Position numbers and translations under genes: made by a program. The notes beneath the pieces were generated by a model. That model searched no databases, was not told the DNA's origin, and saw only the letters and a list, made by a program, of their open reading frames with translations. 64,000 nt of DNA, taken from NCBI GenBank assembly GCA_018830485.1, contig JAHJRQ010000013.1, forward strand, positions 1 to 64,000, in the 5' to 3' direction. This document shows positions 10,759 to 25,637 of this stretch, one piece after another. This stretch comes from Pseudomonadota bacterium (GTDB lineage Bacteria; Desulfobacterota; Desulfobulbia; Desulfobulbales; Desulfurivibrionaceae). Position 1 is the stretch's first letter; every line of letters begins with the position of its first letter.

Positions 10759-11943
10759 TCAATGATGGCCGCTGGGCCGGAAAGCCTTGCCAAAAAACCG
10801 CTCCCCAAGAAGGAACCCGAGACCGACAACACCGAAACCACCCAGGGCGATCAAAAATTCGGACACGGAGGGGAAATAGGAGAAGTAGGTCGGCAGATCG
10901 TCAAAGCCGTTATAGATCGGCACGATCTGACCGGCAACCACGATGTCGTAACGCTGGAAGTACGCACCAACCAACACCATGAGGGCAGCAGCGGATAGTG
11001 CCTGCTGGCTTTTCATCCGGGAGAGGGTCATGATCACGAGGGGAGCAAGCATGCCGACCACGGTTTCGAATACCCAGAAATTCATGGCGAGCGGGCCCTG
11101 GATCAGGGACAGGGCTGCAAGACGGGCTTCCTCGGTGCCACCGGAAAAGGCGGCGATGAACTTCCAGGTGGTGGCGATGGCCAACAGCACGAGGGTGCTG
11201 AACATGACCTTGCCGGCGCCCTGGAGACCTTCGCGGGTGGACTGGCTCATTTCCTCGCCCCGCATCTTATAGGCCCAGTTGCTGAACAGAATGATCGCGG
11301 CGGCGCCGGTCATAACGGCGGAAGCAAGAAAATAGACGGGCAACTGAGAGCCATACCAGAAAGGACGCGCGGAAAGGGTCGCAAACACGGCGCCCAGGTT
11401 GGTATTGGCCGCAAGCTCAGCCAGAGCGCCAAGCACGCCTAGGGTAATGGCCAGGGAATATTTTTTGGTCAGGATCAGGTAAAACTCCACAAACATGAAG
11501 CCAACGGCCATGCTGTACAGGGTTCCCATCCACCAGATGTTGGAGGTCAGATTGGGGGAAAGCATGTTGTAGAGGAGCATGCGATGGGGATTCTCAAGCT
11601 CAAGGCCGATGATGAGGAACCCGCCGAAGATGACCACGATGGAGAGGTATACCATGCGGTTGGCGAGAGCGGTCAAGCGGTTATGCCCGAAGATGTGGCT
11701 CAGCACGGCAAGCAGGCAGAGCCCGGTGGAGATGATGGCGAAATACGCATAATTCGCGATCAGGATGCCCCAAGGCATTTCCCGGGTGTTGGCAAAGGCA
11801 TGTTCATGCCCGGCAACCTGGGCATACAGACCGGCGCCGACACCGACCAAGGCCAGGATCGCACACAGGATGGTTAACTTGGTCACCGTCGGGGTAGCGA
11901 CCTTTTCCTCTGCCACCTCAGCGAGTGAGAATGTGTTCAACAT
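10759..11943 (-). CDS. nrfD: NrfD/PsrC-family quinone-interacting membrane subunit (NrfD-1)
   Basis: NrfD proteins are polytopic subunits that exchange electrons (and sometimes protons) between a periplasmic FeS/cytochrome module and menaquinone. The 394-residue sequence has about nine or ten hydrophobic segments and the family-like motifs GLELENPHRMLLYNMLSP and SNIWWMGTLYSM. GGGAGG lies upstream of the start. It heads a minus-strand operon with MerR-1 and a small membrane protein and lies behind a near-consensus sigma54 promoter. Its paralogue is at 17560-18753. The FeS protein and trihaem cytochrome encoded at 13043-14249 are plausible partners. Confidence 0.88.
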   Translation of the reverse strand: MLNTFSLAEVAEEKVATPTVTKLTILCAILALVGVGAGLYAQVAGHEHAFANTREMPWGILIANYAYFAIISTGLCLLAVLSHIFGHNRLTALANRMVYLSIVVIFGGFLIIGLELENPHRMLLYNMLSPNLTSNIWWMGTLYSMAVGFMFVEFYLILTKKYSLAITLGVLGALAELAANTNLGAVFATLSARPFWYGSQLPVYFLASAVMTGAAAIILFSNWAYKMRGEEMSQSTREGLQGAGKVMFSTLVLLAIATTWKFIAAFSGGTEEARLAALSLIQGPLAMNFWVFETVVGMLAPLVIMTLSRMKSQQALSAAALMVLVGAYFQRYDIVVAGQIVPIYNGFDDLPTYFSYFPSVSEFLIALGGFGVVGLGFLLGERFFGKAFRPSGHH

Positions 11944-12238
11944 GATTTTTCCTCCCTAAATTTTTTATCTGCAATTTAACAGTTAGTGTAACTCACTCCC
12001 GGCCAGGGAGTTATTCCTGCGAACTTCGTTTAATTTTCGATTTAAACCTGTACTCAAACAGTTGCTGGTACTTTCTGGAGCAGGTGATACTTCCGGGCCG
12101 CCACCCGTTGATTGAGGAGTTTCTCCCCTCCAGAAGAACATTTTCAGCCAACTCTCCCCGGCCACCTCCTTTTCCGTGCATTCACTTGTTCGACAATGGG
12201 CTTTTCCTTGCACCGCTTCCATGTCGGAAAAATGAAAG

Positions 12239-12254
12239 AGCAAGGTGCGTGCCA
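12239..12254 (-). promoter_or_regulatory. Sigma54 promoter of the NrfD-1 operon
   Basis: On the minus strand the bases read TGGCACGCACCTTGCT. This matches the -24 TGGCACG and -12 TTGCW elements of RpoN promoters at exact spacing (GG at 12252-12253, GC at 12240-12241). Transcription would start near 12228, giving a leader of about 285 bases before NrfD-1. The match is seen directly; use by RpoN is inferred. Confidence 0.8.
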
Positions 12255-14612: not shown

Positions 14613-17012
14613 ATGGACACTAATAAACAGCCCCCCTCTTCTTCCGCCGTTCAGGAAGCGGTTTTCACCGTCAATGAAAGCTGGCAGATCACTTCTTTCA
14701 ACCAGGCAGCGGAGAAACTCCTGGGCCTCTCTGCCCAAGATATCATCGGCAAGAGCTGTCAGGACGTTTTCAGCGGCTCGGACAGGTTCGTTTCCATGTG
14801 CAAACTGTACGGACCATTGACTGCGGGCCGCGCCATGCACGGGCTGCGGGTCGTGCTGCCCAAGCCGGACAGCACCGAATCCGTCATTCTGCTGGTCACA
14901 GCGATCCCCGTTCCCGACAAAAACGGCAAACTCTCCGGCGCAATCATTACTGTCCGCGACGCCAACGATCCGGGTCAGATCTATCCCTTGGTCATGGAGA
15001 GCATCGCAGACGGCGTCTTCACCGTGGACAAGCGATTCCGCATCACCTCCTTCAACAAGGCGGCGGAAAACATCACCGGCTGGACCGCCAAGGAAGTCGT
15101 CGGGGTGTCCTGCAATATCATTTTCAAGTCCAACATCTGCGGCGCCGACTGCATCCTGGCCCAGAGCGTCAATGAAGGCAAATCCATCGTCAATCGTTCC
15201 ATCTACATCAAAGGCAAGAATGGCCGGACCATCCCCATCAGCATCAGCGCCTCGCCGCTCATCGACCCGGAAGGCCAGGTCATCGGCGGGGTGGAAACCT
15301 TTCGGGACATTACTTCCAGCCTGCAACAGAATCTCATTTTAGACAGCATTGCCGACGGCGTCTTCACCGTGGACCGGAACTGGCATCTGACCTCCTTCAA
15401 CAAGGCGGCGGAAGGCATCACCGGCTGGAGCAAGGATGAGGTTCTCGGCAAGCCCTGCAGCGCCATTTTCCATTCGAGCATCTGCGGAGAGACCTGCATT
15501 CTCGCCCAGAGCGTGGAAAGCGGTAAGCCCATCGGCAACCGTTCCATTTTCATCAAGGGCAAAGACGGGGAGACCATCCCGATCAGCATCAGCGCCGCCC
15601 CCCTTACCGATCCGGACGGCGATGTCATCGGCGGGGTGGAAACCTTCCGCGACCTGACCTCGGTCATGACCAAGGATCTCGTCCTGGAAAGCATCGCCGA
15701 CGGGGTGTTCACCGTGAACCGCAGTTGGAAGATCACCTCCTTCAACCGGGCGGCCGAACTGATTACGGGCTGGAAACGGCAGGATGCCATCGGCAAGTCG
15801 TGCAGCGACGTGTTCCACTCCAGCATCTGCGGCGAAAACTGCGCCATTGCCCAAAGCCTATACAGCGGCAAGCCCGTGGCCAACCGCTCCATCTTTGTCA
15901 AGAACATCGACGGCAAGCAGATCCCCTTAAGCATCAGCGCCGCGCCGCTTCTTGACCACGAAGGCAACGTCATCGGCGGAGTTGAAACCTTCCGGGATCT
16001 GAGCGTGGTCACGGAACTGCGCAAACAGCTTTCCCGGCGCTACACCTTCGGCGAGATTCTCAGCAAAAGCGCCTCCATGCAGCGGATTTTCAGCATCCTG
16101 CCCGAGATCTCCCACAGCGAAAGCAATGTTCTGGTGCTCGGCGAATCGGGCACCGGTAAAGAGCTGGTGGCCCGCGCCATCCACACCTCGAGCCGGCGCA
16201 ACAAAGGGCCGTTCATGGCGGTCAACTGCGGGGCACTGCCGGAAACCCTGCTGGAGTCCGAGCTTTTCGGTTACAAGGCCGGCGCCTTCACCGATGCCAA
16301 ACACGACCGGCCAGGTCGCTTTGCCAGCGCCGAAAAGGGCACCCTGTTCCTCGATGAAATCGGCGATATCCCCGCCTCCCTCCAGGTCAAACTCCTGCGG
16401 GTTCTCCAGGAAAAGGTGTACGAACCCCTTGGCTCCAACAAGCCGGTCAAGGCCGACGTGCGGATCATCGCCGCCACCAATCGCAACCTGCAGCAGCTTG
16501 TGCAGGAAGGACTCTTCCGGGAAGACCTCTTCTATCGCCTGAACGTGGTGAAGATCCTCCTCCCCCCCCTGCGGGAGCGCATGGAAGACGTGCCCATGCT
16601 CGCCGAGCATTTCATCAAACAATTCAGCAATCAGCAGGGCAAGGATATCGTCGGGATTTCCGATGAAGCCCTGGGCATTCTCATGCGCTACGGCTTCCCA
16701 GGCAATATCCGTGAGCTGGAAAACATCATCGAGTATTCCTTCATCCTTTGCCATGGCGGGTTCATCCGGCCGGAACACCTGCCCGAGCCCTTTGCCCCCA
16801 AGGCCCAGGAAAGCCCGCAATCAGGAGCAATTCCCCTCCACAAGCCGCTTCCCCTTGAGGAAATCGAAAAACAGGCGATTTTCCAATCCCTGGAGCGGAA
16901 CCACTGGCGACGGATGAACACCTGCCGGGAGTTGGGCATCTCCAAGGACACCCTGCGCCGGAAGATAGAACGGTATGGGCTAAAGAACCCATTCGGCGAT
17001 GATCTCGACTAA
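14613..17012 (+). CDS. Sigma54-dependent transcriptional activator with four PAS domains
   Basis: The 799-residue protein has four PAS domains (about 1-120, 125-240, 240-355, 355-465), an AAA+ domain (about 480-720) and a Fis-type helix-turn-helix (about 755-795). Walker A is GESGTGKE (about 509-516) and Walker B is LFLDEIGD. The sigma54-contact loop reads GAFTDA (about 557-562) instead of GAFTGA. PAS domains 2-4 are near-identical with a period of about 115 residues, and each carries C-x9-C-x3-C (for example SC, then ICGADC or ICGETC). There is no receiver domain, so the signal is probably sensed directly by the PAS domains in the cytoplasm. Its position between the NrfD/FeS operons and the two nearby sigma54 promoters suggest it controls them. 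Confidence 0.92.
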
Positions 17013-17093: not shown

Positions 17094-17540
17094 TCAACTG
17101 CGCCCGACCAGCTTCTTGCGGCCGGAACCGGCACTTTTCTTGGCCCGGTCGGCCGCCTTGGCTTTTTTTTCCGCCACCTCATCGCCCGCGACCCGCAAGG
17201 AGCGCGGCACAGCCTTATCAAAAAGACATTCACAGGTTTCATGGACCTCGCCGGGACATTCCGCAATCTCCCAGCATGGCGCGAGGGTCAACAATCTTTT
17301 CAACCCCGGAATGCTGATCCCCTGATCGTGGATCATGGAGCGCACACATGACACCCACTTGATGTCGTTCAAGGAATACAGCCGCCGGGATCCTGTATGC
17401 TGGGGATGAACCAGCCCTTCTGCCTCGTAGATACGAAGTGTTCTCGGATGAACATCCAACAGCTTTGCTGCCACCCCTATGGGGTAAATCGGCAAATCAG
17501 GCCGCAAAGGCTGGATGGCCTTTTTTTTCTTGGCCACCAT
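17094..17540 (-). CDS. MerR/HspR-family regulator with cysteine motif and basic tail (MerR-2)
   Basis: This 148-residue paralogue of MerR-1 has the winged helix IGVAAKLLDVHPRTLRIYEAEGLVHP and the same PCWEIAECP motif, followed by HETCECLF. It adds a lysine/alanine-rich tail that may bind nucleic acid non-specifically. The start at 17540 is set by GGAGGAGAAGGAT directly upstream; a longer frame runs into nrfD-2 and is not real. It begins 19 bases after the nrfD-2 stop, so the nrfD-merR order is the same as in the first module. Confidence 0.82.
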   Translation of the reverse strand: MVAKKKKAIQPLRPDLPIYPIGVAAKLLDVHPRTLRIYEAEGLVHPQHTGSRRLYSLNDIKWVSCVRSMIHDQGISIPGLKRLLTLAPCWEIAECPGEVHETCECLFDKAVPRSLRVAGDEVAEKKAKAADRAKKSAGSGRKKLVGRS

Positions 17541-17559
17541 ATCCTTCTCCTCCGCGTGC

Positions 17560-18753
17560 TTAATGGTCCTCGGACAAATGCCCCCTGAAAAGCCTTTCAC
17601 CCATGAAGAATCCCATGACACAGATTCCCATGGCCCCCAATGTGATGAGAATCTCATGCAGGGAAGGGGTGTAAGTGAACAGATGCGGCATATCAACAAG
17701 CCCGAACTCATGGTACCAAGGCACGAGCTGCCCTACCACAACCAGATCGTAGCGCATGAAGAAGATGCCGACAACACTGGAGACCGAGGCCCAGAAGAGC
17801 ACGGGCAGATTTTTGGCGCGGGCGGCCAGGATCATGGCAAAGGGAATAACCATGCCGAGCATGACCTCGCCGAGCCAGAAATTGATCGCATAGGGGCCGC
17901 TCACCAGAGCCATCATGGCCTCGTATTTTCCCGGCGGCTGACCGCTGATGCCGGAGATCATCTTCCAAGTAGTGAAGAACATGATCACCGCGATCAGGGT
18001 TGCCCCCAATTTTGCCGTGGCCATAAGGGAGTTCTCCAGCTTCTCGCTCATCTTCCAGCCATTGGCCCGGTAGCCGAGATAATGGAAGAAGATAACCGCA
18101 GCGCAGCCGGACATCATGGCTGAGGTGATGAAATAGATGGGCATGTACGGCCCATGCCAGAACTCACGGCCGGAAAGCAGGCCAAAAACCGCGCCGAGGT
18201 TACTGTGGGCGGCGATACCGGAAACCAAACCCAGCAAGCCGAACATTCCGGCGATCTTATGCTTCTCCATCTGCAACAGCGCAAACTCGACAACCATAAA
18301 GAAGAGATACGCTCCATAGAGGGTTCCCATCCACCAGATATTGGAGGTGGGATTGGGGGAAAGCATATTATAGATGGGCATCCGCCAGGGGTTTTCGATC
18401 TCGAATCCGATCACGAAAAAACCGGCGACAATGGTGACGATGGCCATGAACACGGAACGCTTGGCAATGGGTTTGAACGCCTCAAGACCAAAGACATGCC
18501 CGATGGAGGAAATCAGACACAACCCGGTGGAACTGACTACAAAGAAAACATAGGTGGCAATGAGCAACCCCCAGGGAACATCCCGGGTGACGCCGAAGGT
18601 ATGCTCATGACCGGCATACATGGCATGCACCCCGGCGGCAAGGCCGAGGGCGGCGAGCAGGCCGCCGATGGCAATGGTGACGTTGCAGGAACGGGAGGGG
18701 CTGGCAACGAGGCCGCCTTCCCGCGGCAATACATCAGCTAAAAAATTATTCAT
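17560..18753 (-). CDS. nrfD: NrfD/PsrC-family quinone-interacting membrane subunit (NrfD-2)
   Basis: The 397-residue polytopic protein is clearly paralogous to NrfD-1. Both share AGHEH-F-TR-(D/E)-(V/M)-PWG near the N-terminus, ENP-RM---YNMLSPN-TSNIWWMGTLY in the middle, and (L/M)GERLF/FG near the end. It would sit in the inner membrane and exchange electrons with menaquinone. AAGGAGA lies upstream of the start. It is preceded by a 36-codon membrane-protein gene and followed by MerR-2. Confidence 0.88.
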   Translation of the reverse strand: MNNFLADVLPREGGLVASPSRSCNVTIAIGGLLAALGLAAGVHAMYAGHEHTFGVTRDVPWGLLIATYVFFVVSSTGLCLISSIGHVFGLEAFKPIAKRSVFMAIVTIVAGFFVIGFEIENPWRMPIYNMLSPNPTSNIWWMGTLYGAYLFFMVVEFALLQMEKHKIAGMFGLLGLVSGIAAHSNLGAVFGLLSGREFWHGPYMPIYFITSAMMSGCAAVIFFHYLGYRANGWKMSEKLENSLMATAKLGATLIAVIMFFTTWKMISGISGQPPGKYEAMMALVSGPYAINFWLGEVMLGMVIPFAMILAARAKNLPVLFWASVSSVVGIFFMRYDLVVVGQLVPWYHEFGLVDMPHLFTYTPSLHEILITLGAMGICVMGFFMGERLFRGHLSEDH

Positions 18754-18842: not shown

Positions 18843-18953
18843 TCATGGCAATGTTTCCTCATTGGCCTGGATCAACGGTTTGATTTTGAGATCAAATACG
18901 GTATGGAGTATTGCACCTCCGATCCAGAAAATTAAAAAAAGCAGACCTTCCAT
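18843..18953 (-). CDS. 36-residue single-span membrane protein before nrfD-2
   Basis: A short open frame reads MEGLLFLIFWIGGAILHTVF and then a charged tail ending in EETLP. GAGGAG (complement of 18961-18966) lies seven bases before its ATG. The N-terminal 20 residues form one hydrophobic helix. It ends 89 bases before nrfD-2 on the same strand. I do not recognise a family; size, Shine-Dalgarno and context argue for a real small subunit or assembly factor. Confidence 0.55.
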   Translation of the reverse strand: MEGLLFLIFWIGGAILHTVFDLKIKPLIQANEETLP

Positions 18954-18966
18954 TTTTTTTCTCCTC

Positions 18967-19439
18967 AATCAAACGACCTGATCTTCCAGGCTTGTGGTTC
19001 ATCGTCGACTCGAACGGAATGGCGGTTCCAAACGAATCACTTCCGCGACGTACCAGACCATATTACTCTTCCCTGCAAACCTCCTTTACATGTTGTTTTT
19101 CAATGAAAATCTTTAGGCTGTCCCACATGGGGGAAACCCACCCAAGCCAATACTGTTATCAAATTACAAAATGGAAAAATCCATTGTCAAGTTTTTATTC
19201 TTTTAATATTCCATTTTTTGGTATTTTTTTGTGCACATTTAGCCCAAAACAAAAACGTCCCGTAACAAGATGGCGCAATATCTCTTTTTACGACAACTCC
19301 AGCATGCTGTTTTCCGCACAAGAACAATACGAAAAAACATACATATAGCCTGACATTGCCGATACAAAAAACAGAAAAAACACCCCGGATTTCGGCACAA
19401 CACAACACATGCCACAACACAAGACCCAGATCACCAAAA
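18967..19439. other. Long upstream region of nrfD-2, no gene seen
   Basis: AT-rich towards the right (19150-19350). The open frames here lack ribosome-binding sites and protein-like composition. No sigma54 promoter facing nrfD-2 was found on the minus strand. Confidence 0.4.
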
Positions 19440-19490
19440 ATGGCAAAAAATGATCCATCGACACAACGACAAGGAATCAAAATGATCCAT
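19440..19490. promoter_or_regulatory. Two putative activator sites upstream of a sigma54 promoter
   Basis: Site 1 (19440-19458) is ATGG-N11-CCAT. Site 2 (19471-19490) is AAGG-N12-CCAT. Both contain AATGATCCATC, starting at 19449 and 19481, exactly 32 bp or about three helical turns apart, and both are followed by GA-CACAAC-like words. They lie about 160-205 bp before the predicted start at 19648 and resemble the site at 12416-12435. Confidence 0.5.
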
Positions 19491-19621
19491 CCGAGCACAA
19501 CTATACCCGCAAGAGAAAATCCGGACAACCCAAAAAACACCGCGAGAAAAATACGTTAACCGACCGAAACAAAAGGAGATAAAATTAACCTGACACAATA
19601 AACAGCCAAAAAAGCACACGC

Positions 19622-19637
19622 TGGCACAGTGATTGCT
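19622..19637 (+). promoter_or_regulatory. Sigma54 promoter of the candidate small RNA
   Basis: TGGCAC (19622-19627), five bases, then TTGCT (19633-19637), with the GG and GC dinucleotides at exact RpoN spacing. The predicted start is near 19648, the first base of the folded RNA described below. Confidence 0.8.
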
Positions 19638-19647
19638 TTAAGACACA

Positions 19648-19778
19648 GCAGGGAACACCATGGTTTTCCGACCATGGGAGACACAAGACAGACGACCTTC
19701 CGTCTTTCCGCGCAAGCGGACTCAATCAATCCCTTCCCTGCAAAGGATCCTCGGTGGCGGCCCAGGATCCTTTTTTTT
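19648..19778 (+). ncRNA. Candidate sigma54-dependent small RNA of about 130 nt
   Basis: The predicted transcript begins with GCAGGGAA (19648-19655), which pairs with TTCCCTGC (19734-19741). This closes a multibranch loop holding three hairpins: CCATGG (19658-19663) with 19672-19677; AGACG (19690-19694) with CGTCT (19701-19705); and TCCGC with GCGGA (19707-19720) capped by a GCAA tetraloop of the GNRA type. A perfect-stem intrinsic terminator follows at once. No open frame with a ribosome-binding site is present. It lies upstream of the penicillin-binding protein gene, but the terminator separates them. A trans-acting RNA fits the layout better than a riboswitch, since the fold ends in termination with no obvious alternative pairing, but neither is shown. 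Confidence 0.6.
19742..19778 (+). terminator. Rho-independent terminator of the candidate small RNA
   Basis: AAAGGATCCT (19742-19751) pairs perfectly with AGGATCCTTT (19764-19773), followed by more Ts. Confidence 0.9.
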
Positions 19779-19911
19779 CTTTCTCCCCGGACGCCCCTCA
19801 CCCAAGAAATGTAGTGACCTTGCCGTGCTAACCCTGTATTATCATGCGCTGACTCCACCGAAACGAAATCGACATCGTCTCGTTCCACTCCATTAATGAA
19901 TAGTTTTCTCA

Positions 19912-21939
19912 GTGTCTGCCGTGCAAAATACGACCCAGCCCACAATCCGGACCTGGACCCATGTCCAGCTCACGTTCTTCCTGCTCGCCATCGGCCTCAT
20001 CCTGACCCTCGCCCTGGGCGGGGCCTTATACATCTTTATCTCCCTTGATATTCCCTCAATCGGCGCCCTGAAAAACTACCGTCCAGCCACCACTTCCATC
20101 ATCTACGACGCGGAAAAACAGCCGATTACCCATGTATCAAGGGAAAACCGGACCCTCGTCCCGCTTTCCGCGATGCCGGAGGTTCTCCCCCAAGCATTCA
20201 TAGCCGCGGAAGACTCCCGTTTTTATCAACACAGCGGGGTTGATGCCTGGTCGATCATCCGGGCGCTTATCCACAACATTCGTTCGGGGGAACGGGGCCA
20301 AGGCGGCAGCACCATCACCCAGCAGGTCGCCAGGGCGCTCCTGCTCACCCCGGAAAAAACCTACACCCGCAAGATCAAGGAAGCAATTCTCGCCTACCGG
20401 ATCGACACCGCCCTCAGCAAAGAGGAAATTCTTCATATCTATCTCAACCAGATTTATCTGGGCAGCGGCGCCTATGGAGTAGAGGCCGCTGCCCAGATTT
20501 ACTTCGACAAACGCGTTCAGGACCTCAACCTTGCCGAGGCCGCGCTTCTTGCCGGCTTGCCGCAAGCGCCAAGCCGGTACTCACCGTTTCGCAACTTCAA
20601 GCTTGCCAAAAACAGACAGCTCTATGTCCTGAACCGCATGGCGGAAGAGGGATACATCACTCCGACCGCCGCGCAAAAGGCCTATGAAAAGACCCTGCTT
20701 TGGAATCCCGCCAAGGAAGGCCCCACGGAAAACAACTATTTTGTTGAGTATGTCAAGGCTTACGTCGAAAGCAAATATGGCAGCGAGGCCCTGCTGACCG
20801 GCGGCCTTCGCATCTACACCACCCTTGACCAGAACATGCAGCAGGCCGCAAACATGGCCATAAAGCGGGGCACCGCAAAATGGGCCATCCGCCAGAGCAA
20901 ACACGCCGACACCCTGCCCCAGGCTGCCCTGATCTCCATGGAAGTAAAGACCGGCCGCGTTCGGGCAATGGTGGGAGGCACCGATTTTGACAAAAGTCAG
21001 TTCAACCGCGCGACCCAGGCCCGCCGTCAGCCGGGTTCAGCCTTCAAGCCCTTTATTTACGCCGCCGCCCTTGAAAACGGGATGACCCCTGCCACCATGA
21101 TTGTCGACGAACCGATCCAATTTCGCGGCGCCACGGCGATGCAGTATTGGGCGCCCAAGAATTACGACAATACATTCGAGGGCCCCACCTCCTTCAGAAA
21201 CGCGCTGGTCCATTCGCGAAACGTCCCCACCATCAAAATCCTGCAACAGGTCGGGGCAGACAAAACCATTGATCTGGCCAGGAGGCTGGGCATCTCCTCC
21301 CCCCTGGTTAAAGATCTCTCCCTGGCCCTGGGAACCTCCGGGGTTTCCCCCCTTGAGATGATCCGGGCATACGCAGCCTTTGCCAACAATGGCCGGATGC
21401 CCCAGCCTCTTTTCATTGAAAAAATTGTCGGCAGCAGCGGTAAGGTTCTTGAGGAACAGCATCCCTCCTTCAGCGAGGCCGTTGATCCCCGGGTTGCCTA
21501 CCAGATGACCCGCATCATGGAAGCAGTCATCACCGACGGCACGGCCAAAGGCATCAGCAGCTTCGGCGCGCCCGCAGCCGGCAAAACCGGGACCACGGAC
21601 CAAAATGTGGATGCCTGGTTTGTCGGCTACACCCCTGAGCTGACGACCTGTGTCTGGATTGGGCACGACCAGAACATCTCTCTGGGCAGAGCCGAGACGG
21701 GTGGACTGGCGGCAGCGCCCATCTGGCTTGATTTCATGAACCAGACAAGGGAGGCCTATCCCTCGTCCGGCGGATTCCAAATTCCTCCGGGCATTGTCTT
21801 GCTGCCCATGGACAACAACACCGGTCAGCCAGGGGCAGCGGTCGGCGGCAATGTCACCCTTGAGGCCTTCCGGGAAGACACCCCGCCTTGGCGCCAGGAA
21901 GAACCTCCCCCCACTGAGAGCAGCGATTCGCTTTTATAG
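19912..21939 (+). CDS. Class A penicillin-binding protein (PBP1A-type)
   Basis: The bifunctional peptidoglycan glycosyltransferase/transpeptidase has one N-terminal membrane anchor (about residues 20-42) and acts in the periplasm. The GT51 domain shows AAEDSRFYQHSGVD and QGGSTITQQVARALLL, then IYLNQIYLGSGAYGVEAAA. The transpeptidase domain has the SxxK serine in GSAFK (about 375), SRN in HSRNVP, and KTG in GKTGTT (about 557). At 675 residues it is somewhat shorter than enterobacterial PBP1A. The frame starts at GTG 19912 with a weak Shine-Dalgarno; the membrane anchor supports a start near there. Confidence 0.92.
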   Translation: MSAVQNTTQPTIRTWTHVQLTFFLLAIGLILTLALGGALYIFISLDIPSIGALKNYRPATTSIIYDAEKQPITHVSRENRTLVPLSAMPEVLPQAFIAAEDSRFYQHSGVDAWSIIRALIHNIRSGERGQGGSTITQQVARALLLTPEKTYTRKIKEAILAYRIDTALSKEEILHIYLNQIYLGSGAYGVEAAAQIYFDKRVQDLNLAEAALLAGLPQAPSRYSPFRNFKLAKNRQLYVLNRMAEEGYITPTAAQKAYEKTLLWNPAKEGPTENNYFVEYVKAYVESKYGSEALLTGGLRIYTTLDQNMQQAANMAIKRGTAKWAIRQSKHADTLPQAALISMEVKTGRVRAMVGGTDFDKSQFNRATQARRQPGSAFKPFIYAAALENGMTPATMIVDEPIQFRGATAMQYWAPKNYDNTFEGPTSFRNALVHSRNVPTIKILQQVGADKTIDLARRLGISSPLVKDLSLALGTSGVSPLEMIRAYAAFANNGRMPQPLFIEKIVGSSGKVLEEQHPSFSEAVDPRVAYQMTRIMEAVITDGTAKGISSFGAPAAGKTGTTDQNVDAWFVGYTPELTTCVWIGHDQNISLGRAETGGLAAAPIWLDFMNQTREAYPSSGGFQIPPGIVLLPMDNNTGQPGAAVGGNVTLEAFREDTPPWRQEEPPPTESSDSLL

Positions 21940-24971: not shown

Positions 24972-25187
24972 TACCCACAGGGCATGCGTTTTCTTTGAGC
25001 AGGCAAGCTGCTCAACTCAGCTTTTCACCCTGCGGGTATAAGTTTCGTTTGAGCAGGCAAGCTGCTCAACTCAGCTTTTCACCCTTCGGGTATAAGTTTC
25101 GTTTGAGCAGGCAAGCTGCTCAACTCAGCTTTTCACCCTTCGGGTATAAGTTTCGTTTGAGCAGGCAAGCTGCTCAACTCAGCTTTA
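24972..25187. repeat. Tandem array of four 54-bp palindromic repeats
   Basis: One degenerate unit (24972-25025) and three nearly identical ones (25026-25079, 25080-25133, 25134-25187) lie head to tail without spacers. Each unit has a CACCC-ttc-GGGT mini-hairpin, TATAAGTTTCG, then TTGAGCAG-GCAAG-CTGCTCAA and CTCAGCTTTT. The last unit contains the TTA that is the stop codon of the minus-strand CBS gene. A fifth copy lies at 5987-6039. Confidence 0.92.
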
Positions 25188-25637
25188 CCCCCTGGCCAGG
25201 GTCCGGATAATGTCCGACTTTCCGACCACCCCGACCAGAGCGCCGTTCTTGAGCACCGGCAGGGTATGGACCTTTTTCTCGGCCATGATGGTGGCGATTT
25301 CGTCCAGCGGGGTGTCCTCGCGAATGGTCACGGGTTCCCGGGAGCAGATATCCCCTACCGTGGCGCCGGTCATTTTGTTAATCTCCTTTTCCACCGTTTT
25401 GGCGCGGTCCAAAAAGATGACCGAGTCCAAAATGGAGATGGCGGTGGGGATGTGAAACCTCTTGGTCTGATCCACCAGATCGCTTTCCGTCACCACGCCG
25501 ATCAGCAGCCCGTCCTCGTCGACCACCGGCGCCCCGTTGATGCGGTGCGCCCAGAGAACGCCCGCCAGTTTTTCCACCGGCAGATCCGCCTTTACCGAAA
25601 CAACCTTCTTCGCCATGATCTCCTTGGCTATCAGCAT
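25185..25637 (-). CDS. CBS-pair domain protein
   Basis: A 150-residue protein made almost wholly of two CBS motifs (about 5-62, ending VVTESDLV, and 95-148, ending VVGKSDIIRTLARG). Stand-alone CBS pairs usually sense adenosine nucleotides and regulate a partner that cannot be named from sequence. Its stop codon lies inside the last 54-bp repeat. It is 68 bases downstream of nnr on the same strand and is possibly co-transcribed. Confidence 0.85.
   Translation of the reverse strand: MLIAKEIMAKKVVSVKADLPVEKLAGVLWAHRINGAPVVDEDGLLIGVVTESDLVDQTKRFHIPTAISILDSVIFLDRAKTVEKEINKMTGATVGDICSREPVTIREDTPLDEIATIMAEKKVHTLPVLKNGALVGVVGKSDIIRTLARG

Follow-up and report, generated by a model that had tools for sequence, protein, structure and literature searches.

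In the 64,000-nucleotide stretch of DNA analysed here (the window), positions 19648-19779 are best described as the gene of an undescribed, σ54-driven structured small RNA (sRNA), a description supported by a conserved promoter, a covarying structure, an intrinsic terminator and the lack of a corresponding family in Rfam 15. From its complementarity to a neighbouring leader, this σ54-dependent sRNA probably acts by base pairing to silence the divergent operon encoding a small peptide, the membrane protein NrfD1 and a MerR-type regulator, in favour of the paralogue NrfD2. The features on the sRNA side of the locus are the following, where patches 1 to 3 denote three conserved, exposed segments of the sRNA (GACCUUCYGU, CUCAAUC and the terminator loop UGGCGG) that are either single-stranded or placed in a loop.

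19622-19637, + strand: σ54 (-24/-12) promoter of the sRNA, TGGCAC-N5-TTGCT (TGGCACAGTGATTGCT), an exact match
19648-19779, + strand: predicted sRNA gene of about 132 nt, from its fold, conservation in 12 genomes and covariation
19658-19677, + strand: sRNA hairpin 1 (CAUGG...CCAUG), covarying, with double changes at 3 pairs
19690-19705, + strand: sRNA hairpin 2, with patch 1 in its loop, from the predicted fold and covariation analysis
19694-19703, + strand: patch 1, GACCUUCCGU (GACCUUCYGU), complementary in 12/12 genomes to AUGGAAGGUC, the start-codon site of the NrfD1 operon
19707-19720, + strand: sRNA hairpin 3, with a GCAA loop, from the predicted fold and covariation analysis
19721-19727, + strand: patch 2, CUCAAUC, single-stranded, complementary to GAUUGAG, which touches the Shine-Dalgarno sequence of the NrfD1 operon (11/12 genomes)
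19742-19779, + strand: intrinsic terminator (12/12 genomes), whose invariant loop UGGCGG (19755-19760) is patch 3
19814-19842, + strand: PBP1A's separate σ70-like promoter, which follows the sRNA terminator and is kept also in G009
19912-21939, + strand: PBP1A

The RpoN promoter that the original prediction had placed at 19622-19637 was recovered exactly, and its TGGCAY-N5-TTGC element is retained in all 12 sRNA genomes of the alignment. Only two sites in the window match TGGCACN5TTGCW without mismatch, this one on the + strand and a second at 12254-12239. The start of the RNA at 19648 is taken from promoter spacing and its 3' end from the terminator, and the unit is single-copy in its own genome. 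The earlier statement that the region holds no reading frame fails literally, since open reading frames of 61 and 78 aa cross it in the window sequence, but it stands in the sense that none of them is conserved: stop codons end the ATG frame after 7 codons in G010 and 5 in G006, indels of many sizes interrupt the frames among relatives, and comparison of the frames among these relatives revealed no conserved coding capacity.

The predicted fold of 19648-19779 reaches -57.6 kcal/mol (z = -6.05, with 0/200 shuffles as good) and reproduces the architecture first proposed, in which 19648-19655 pairs with 19734-19741 to enclose three hairpins, one of them with a GNRA-type GCAA loop, followed by the terminator stem. 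The 8-bp closing stem of that proposal is perfect in this species but is the weakest helix among relatives (85% paired, no double changes). By blastn in 58 genomes, the unit was found in 10 other genomes of the same genus and in G020, from another genus of the family, giving a total of 12 sRNA genomes (11 of this genus and one of another), and G009 yielded terminator-like matches only. The suggested covariance-model search of relatives returned the same 12 genomes with E < 1e-23 and nothing comparable elsewhere among 258 genomes of the order; those of the weaker matches that were inspected proved to be terminator-like or within genes. Across the stems of the 12 genomes, 96.7% of the cells are paired, six pairs are double-changed as against 2.0 in shuffles, and the covariation is 0.136 versus 0.095 in shuffles, with all slid controls lower overall. 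Relatives therefore keep both the promoter and compensatory stem changes, an outcome that favours an sRNA, and the fact that 11 related genomes have the unit in front of the same PBP1A gene bears out the earlier judgement that promoter, fold and terminator fit each other beyond chance.

At the level of primary sequence, the terminator loop GGUGGCGGCC is kept in 12/12 aligned sRNAs and ACUCAAUC in 11/12, and the core AGACAAACGACCUUCUGUCUUUCCG is nearly invariant: the window species and its sister differ by two substitutions, and G004 and G005/G006-type sequences show small changes. Conservation of the predicted gene extends over one group of Desulfobulbales-like, sulfur-cycling bacteria. Searches of Rfam 15 at relaxed E-values with the sRNA and seven relatives gave only low-scoring unrelated matches and no family above the gathering threshold; the candidate sRNA belongs to no described RNA family among those tested, and a literature search confined to open-access papers found no published description of it.

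The sRNA is flanked on its left by the divergent peptide ORF, NrfD1 and MerR gene and on its right by PBP1A. The features of the putative target operon, the activator gene and the NrfD2 gene are the following.

19163-19190, - strand: σ70-like promoter of the NrfD1 operon, TTGACA-16-TGTAAT, with a conserved TTGACA box
18944-19038, - strand: target leader of the NrfD1 operon, with a hairpin at 19007-19038 whose loop is CCGCCA (19020-19025)
18961-18970 and 18944-18953, - strand: target sites of this leader, GAUUGAGGAG and the start-codon site AUGGAAGGUC, respectively
18843-18953, - strand: ORF of a 36-aa membrane peptide (MEGLLFLIFW...), first gene of the target operon, conserved in 16 genomes
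17560-18753, - strand: NrfD1, an NrfD-family membrane protein (PF03916, E 1.6e-33)
17094-17711, - strand: MerR-family regulator (PF13411), which overlaps the end of NrfD1 and whose true start is uncertain
14613-17012, + strand: σ54 activator with 4 PAS domains, AAA+ and a Fis-type HTH (Pfam)
12239-12254, - strand: σ54 promoter of NrfD2, the second exact TGGCACN5TTGCW match
12093-12119, - strand: antisense element of the NrfD2 leader, composed of CUCCUCAAUC (12110-12119) and the hairpin CGGGUGGCGGCCCGG with loop UGGCGG
10759-11943, - strand: NrfD2, an NrfD-family paralogue about 45% identical to NrfD1 (PF03916, 94.5 bits)

NrfD1 and NrfD2 share PF03916 with the membrane subunits of the HmcC/DsrP/NrfD type (117.1 and 94.5 bits, respectively, against a gathering score of 25.8). 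Since all NCBIfam equivalog models fall far below their cut-offs, both are regarded as unassigned NrfD proteins, NrfD1 being HmcC-like though far under the NCBIfam cut-off. The MerR-family regulator is HspR-like, with a score below the cut-off. The 36-aa peptide that precedes NrfD1 has no Pfam or NCBIfam match; it is single-span and conserved, and may be an unannotated small subunit. In 15/15 genomes, the target motif is preceded by the TTGACA box of the operon at a distance of 205-244 nt. The spacer between the -35 and -10 boxes is the typical position of a MerR-type operator, and the operon, which ends with a MerR-type gene, carries in its promoter (19163-19190, - strand) an inverted repeat, ATGGA-TTTT-TCCAT, at this position in this species.

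The peptide-NrfD1 operon has a leader that scarcely changes among genomes (CCUGGAAGAUCAGGUCGUUUGAUUGAGGAGAAAAAAAUGGAAGGUC). In every case the CCGCCA motif of this leader (CCGUCA in one genome) forms the six-base loop of a hairpin, whose stems vary yet stay paired, with seven double-changed pairs and a covariation of 0.414 versus 0.254 in shuffles (0/500 shuffles as high). Because the stems covary while the loop stays, this hairpin points to selection to present the CCGCCA loop. Rfam searches with the NrfD1 and NrfD2 leaders at relaxed thresholds gave only low-scoring unrelated matches.

The three sRNA patches match this leader in antiparallel order, that is, 5'->3' in the sRNA against 3'->5' in the leader. 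Patch 3 is complementary to the leader loop CCGCCA in 12/12 genomes, and patch 2 is altered in G020 (for G001, the scoring of patch 2 used the earlier GATTGAG, which leaves the count unaffected). In silico, therefore, the sRNA terminator and the covarying leader hairpin carry complementary 6-nt loops, and an exposed seed complementary to the start region of the target is conserved. As the target patches hardly vary, sRNA and target show no genuine compensatory change, just a G-C/G-U swap, and since patch 1 lies inside a hairpin loop, its full 10-bp pairing requires the opening of the hairpin-2 stem. Given that three patches match the start region of the neighbouring operon, the sRNA most likely shuts this operon off.

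In the circuit proposed here, NrfD1 would be made from the σ70-like promoter, and the PAS-type activator encoded at 14613-17012 would respond to a signal, probably redox. Once the activator is on, σ54 polymerase would make NrfD2 and the sRNA. The first docking would be a loop-loop contact of the terminator loop UGGCGG with the leader loop CCGCCA, after which pairs would form at the Shine-Dalgarno sequence (CUCAAUC with GAUUGAG) and at the start codon (GACCUUCYGU with AUGGAAGGUC), so that ribosome entry would be blocked and translation of the NrfD1 operon would stop. The NrfD2 leader, which bears two of the same patches, may act likewise on the NrfD1 leader, and the outcome would be the exchange of NrfD1 for its paralogue NrfD2.

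The activator is presumed to act on both σ54 promoters; inspection by eye of the regions upstream of them found nothing convincing in the way of shared activator-binding sites. The last three of its four PAS domains share a repeated Cys pattern that suggests bound metal, heme or redox-active thiols, and that its signal is a redox or metal cue is a guess from these Cys-containing domains. The gene is found in every sRNA genome, usually within ~5 kb of the sRNA, although at ~15 kb in G007 and G014 and on another contig in some fragmented assemblies. Genomes G009, G012, G013 and G015 have PBP1A and are without the activator, the NrfD1 block and the sRNA; the TGGCAY-N5-TTGC element, present upstream of NrfD2 in 15 activator-bearing genomes, is absent in G012 as well. 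The activator-MerR-NrfD1-sRNA block behaves as a unit. In G018, the target leader, the antisense element and the sRNA are all missing, although the activator and both NrfD genes are present. Absence from G005 and G016 is uninformative, as their contigs break off beside NrfD1 or shortly within the leader.

The NrfD2 leader carries two of the patches of the sRNA, UGGCGG and CUCCUCAAUC, the latter being a perfect complement of GAUUGAGGAG, the Shine-Dalgarno stretch of the NrfD1 operon. Scoring with only these two NrfD2-leader patches again places the NrfD1-operon start first of 14,913 in G008. Genomes of the genus retain the antisense element, as do G020 and, at a greater distance, G017, G021 and G023. 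The target leader occurs in 16/258 genomes of the order, all 16 of which have the NrfD2 element, and the two are always accompanied by the PAS-type σ54 activator. Three further genomes match the NrfD2 element: G016, where a contig break falls at NrfD1, and G117 and G121, of another family, whose matches were rejected as chance because they lie antisense in a mutS-like gene (gene call by eye). A second conserved hairpin, AATAACTCCCTGGCCGGGAGTGAG, precedes the start of NrfD2 (11990-12020, - strand) and may regulate this gene in cis. Genomes G017, G021 and G023 keep the target leader with the sRNA undetected, which argues that the leader is under some further constraint, possibly from the NrfD2 leader. 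A serious though still tentative proposal is that the NrfD2 mRNA leader acts in trans as an antisense of the NrfD1 leader, so that four genera would have retained an mRNA-to-mRNA exclusion switch, to which the sRNA (two genera) would be a later addition reusing the patches.

A variant of the pairing, unlikely on balance, is that patch 1 contacts not the start codon but an upstream site of the same leader, AGGUCGUUU, by means of AAACGACCU (9 bp), in a non-collinear topology. The hairpin-2 loop AAACGACCU is complementary to this site in most genomes and the stem need not open, but the site varies (AGGCUGUUU in G001, AGGUUGUUU in G002, G004 and G020), whereas AUGGAAGGUC does not, and pairing there would reverse the order relative to patches 2 and 3.

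The match to the leader was first noticed by eye. It was therefore retested in a way that ignored position, on 2.02 Mb of the near-complete relative G008 (72% of that genome). The ordered pattern CCGCCA..GAUUGAG..GAAGGUC occurs there only in the NrfD1 leader and in the antisense strand of the sRNA itself. Candidate starts were scored by the summed helix energy of the ordered patches; an unconstrained RNAduplex ranking had been swamped by GC-rich starts and was dropped in favour of this patch-based score. With three patches, the NrfD1-operon start ranks 1 of 14,913 starts in G008, nearly tied with the runner-up, and with two patches only it ranks 9th of 14,913; in the window, scored with the sRNA of this species, it leads 434 starts once the sRNA's own antisense is set aside. 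As the patches were chosen after the match had been seen, these ranks are supportive and not formal probabilities. Bacterial sRNAs usually have several targets, and the close three-patch scores of other starts, together with the eight that score better with two patches, would suit a real σ54 sRNA with its main targets elsewhere and a minor or incidental match to the neighbouring leader. This is rather improbable, given that the adjacent gene offers three ordered patches, which nearly all genomes conserve, and that two of them recur in the NrfD2 leader.

The pairing could also be real and activate the operon, or act via RNA stability or termination, and the conserved hairpins of the leader are structures that it could remodel. 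This is quite improbable, since the paired segments cover the edge of the Shine-Dalgarno sequence and the start codon, which are largely open in several predicted folds, and pairing over these positions is the usual geometry of repression.

On the other side of the locus, every genome carrying the element has it ~130 nt in front of PBP1A, as would be expected of a leader or attenuator of that gene rather than a free sRNA. Such an identity is very improbable: a strong terminator ends the element, PBP1A has its own promoter-like block after it, kept in the sRNA-less G009, and several genomes have PBP1A without the element. The block AAGAAATGTAGTGACCTTGCCGGGCTAACCCTGTATTAT (19805-19843) preceding PBP1A shows almost no variation across the genus, a constraint beyond the needs of a plain promoter, and G009 has at the same place (L013, ~1501-1548) a different perfect terminator, AAAGGATCCTCGGCAACAGCCGAGGATCCTTT. 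Further downstream, at 24995-25210, an open frame of an 18-aa tandem repeat (LSRQAAQLSFSPFGYKFR) directly follows a chorismate-binding/aminotransferase fusion gene and is probably a DNA repeat array. Finally, 13 exact TGGCACN5TTGCW strings occur in the 2.02 Mb of G008, so that a single promoter match means little, but it is hardly credible that a functionless spacer with a promoter-like string and hairpins would have promoter, fold and terminator conserved in twelve genomes with covariation.

With repression of the NrfD1 operon as the preferred reading, an undescribed sRNA family gains a specific, testable target and circuit in bacteria whose regulatory RNAs are little studied. If it is true, one σ54 activator would swap a respiratory membrane protein for its paralogue, by transcription on one side and base pairing on the other. 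The mRNA leader of the paralogue itself seemingly carries the antisense as well, a point relevant to the origin of small RNAs: leader cross-talk and a stand-alone small RNA would form a natural series, should the exclusion between the two leaders be real.

Among known systems, the Pxr sRNA of Myxococcus xanthus has an apparent σ54 promoter beside the σ54-dependent regulator gene nla19, folds into several stem-loops, is lineage-restricted and has a developmental role, its targets having been left to be identified (PMC5568312). It has in common with the present sRNA the σ54 promoter, the neighbourhood of a σ54 regulator, the stem-loops, the narrow lineage and the former delta-proteobacterial group. 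Unlike Pxr, with its nla19 neighbour and its role in development, the sRNA described here adjoins NrfD1 and PBP1A and has a proposed target; comparison via Rfam and neighbouring genes found neither the Myxococcales synteny (nla19) nor Rfam-level similarity. GlmY and Qrr-type sRNAs are described as having a -24/-12 promoter under an enhancer-binding activator (PMC7073468, PMC10162802); GlmY functions by decoying a protein, and Qrr belongs to quorum sensing. Their likeness to the present sRNA lies in the σ54-dependent promoter, with no homology by Rfam.

OxyS is not known to be σ54-driven, and its contacts with fhlA are reportedly of the loop-loop (kissing) type. According to PMC3708529, which cites Argaman and Altuvia 2000, OxyS represses fhlA in E. 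coli by contacts at two sites, the ribosome-binding site and the coding region. The likeness would consist of a loop-loop contact plus a ribosome-binding block, here predicted from sequence; OxyS acts far from its own gene, whereas the present sRNA would use three patches on an adjacent target and is joined by a second RNA with the same patches. By analogy, it most likely works like the known σ54 sRNAs (GlmY, Qrr and Pxr) and by loop-loop repression of the OxyS-fhlA kind.
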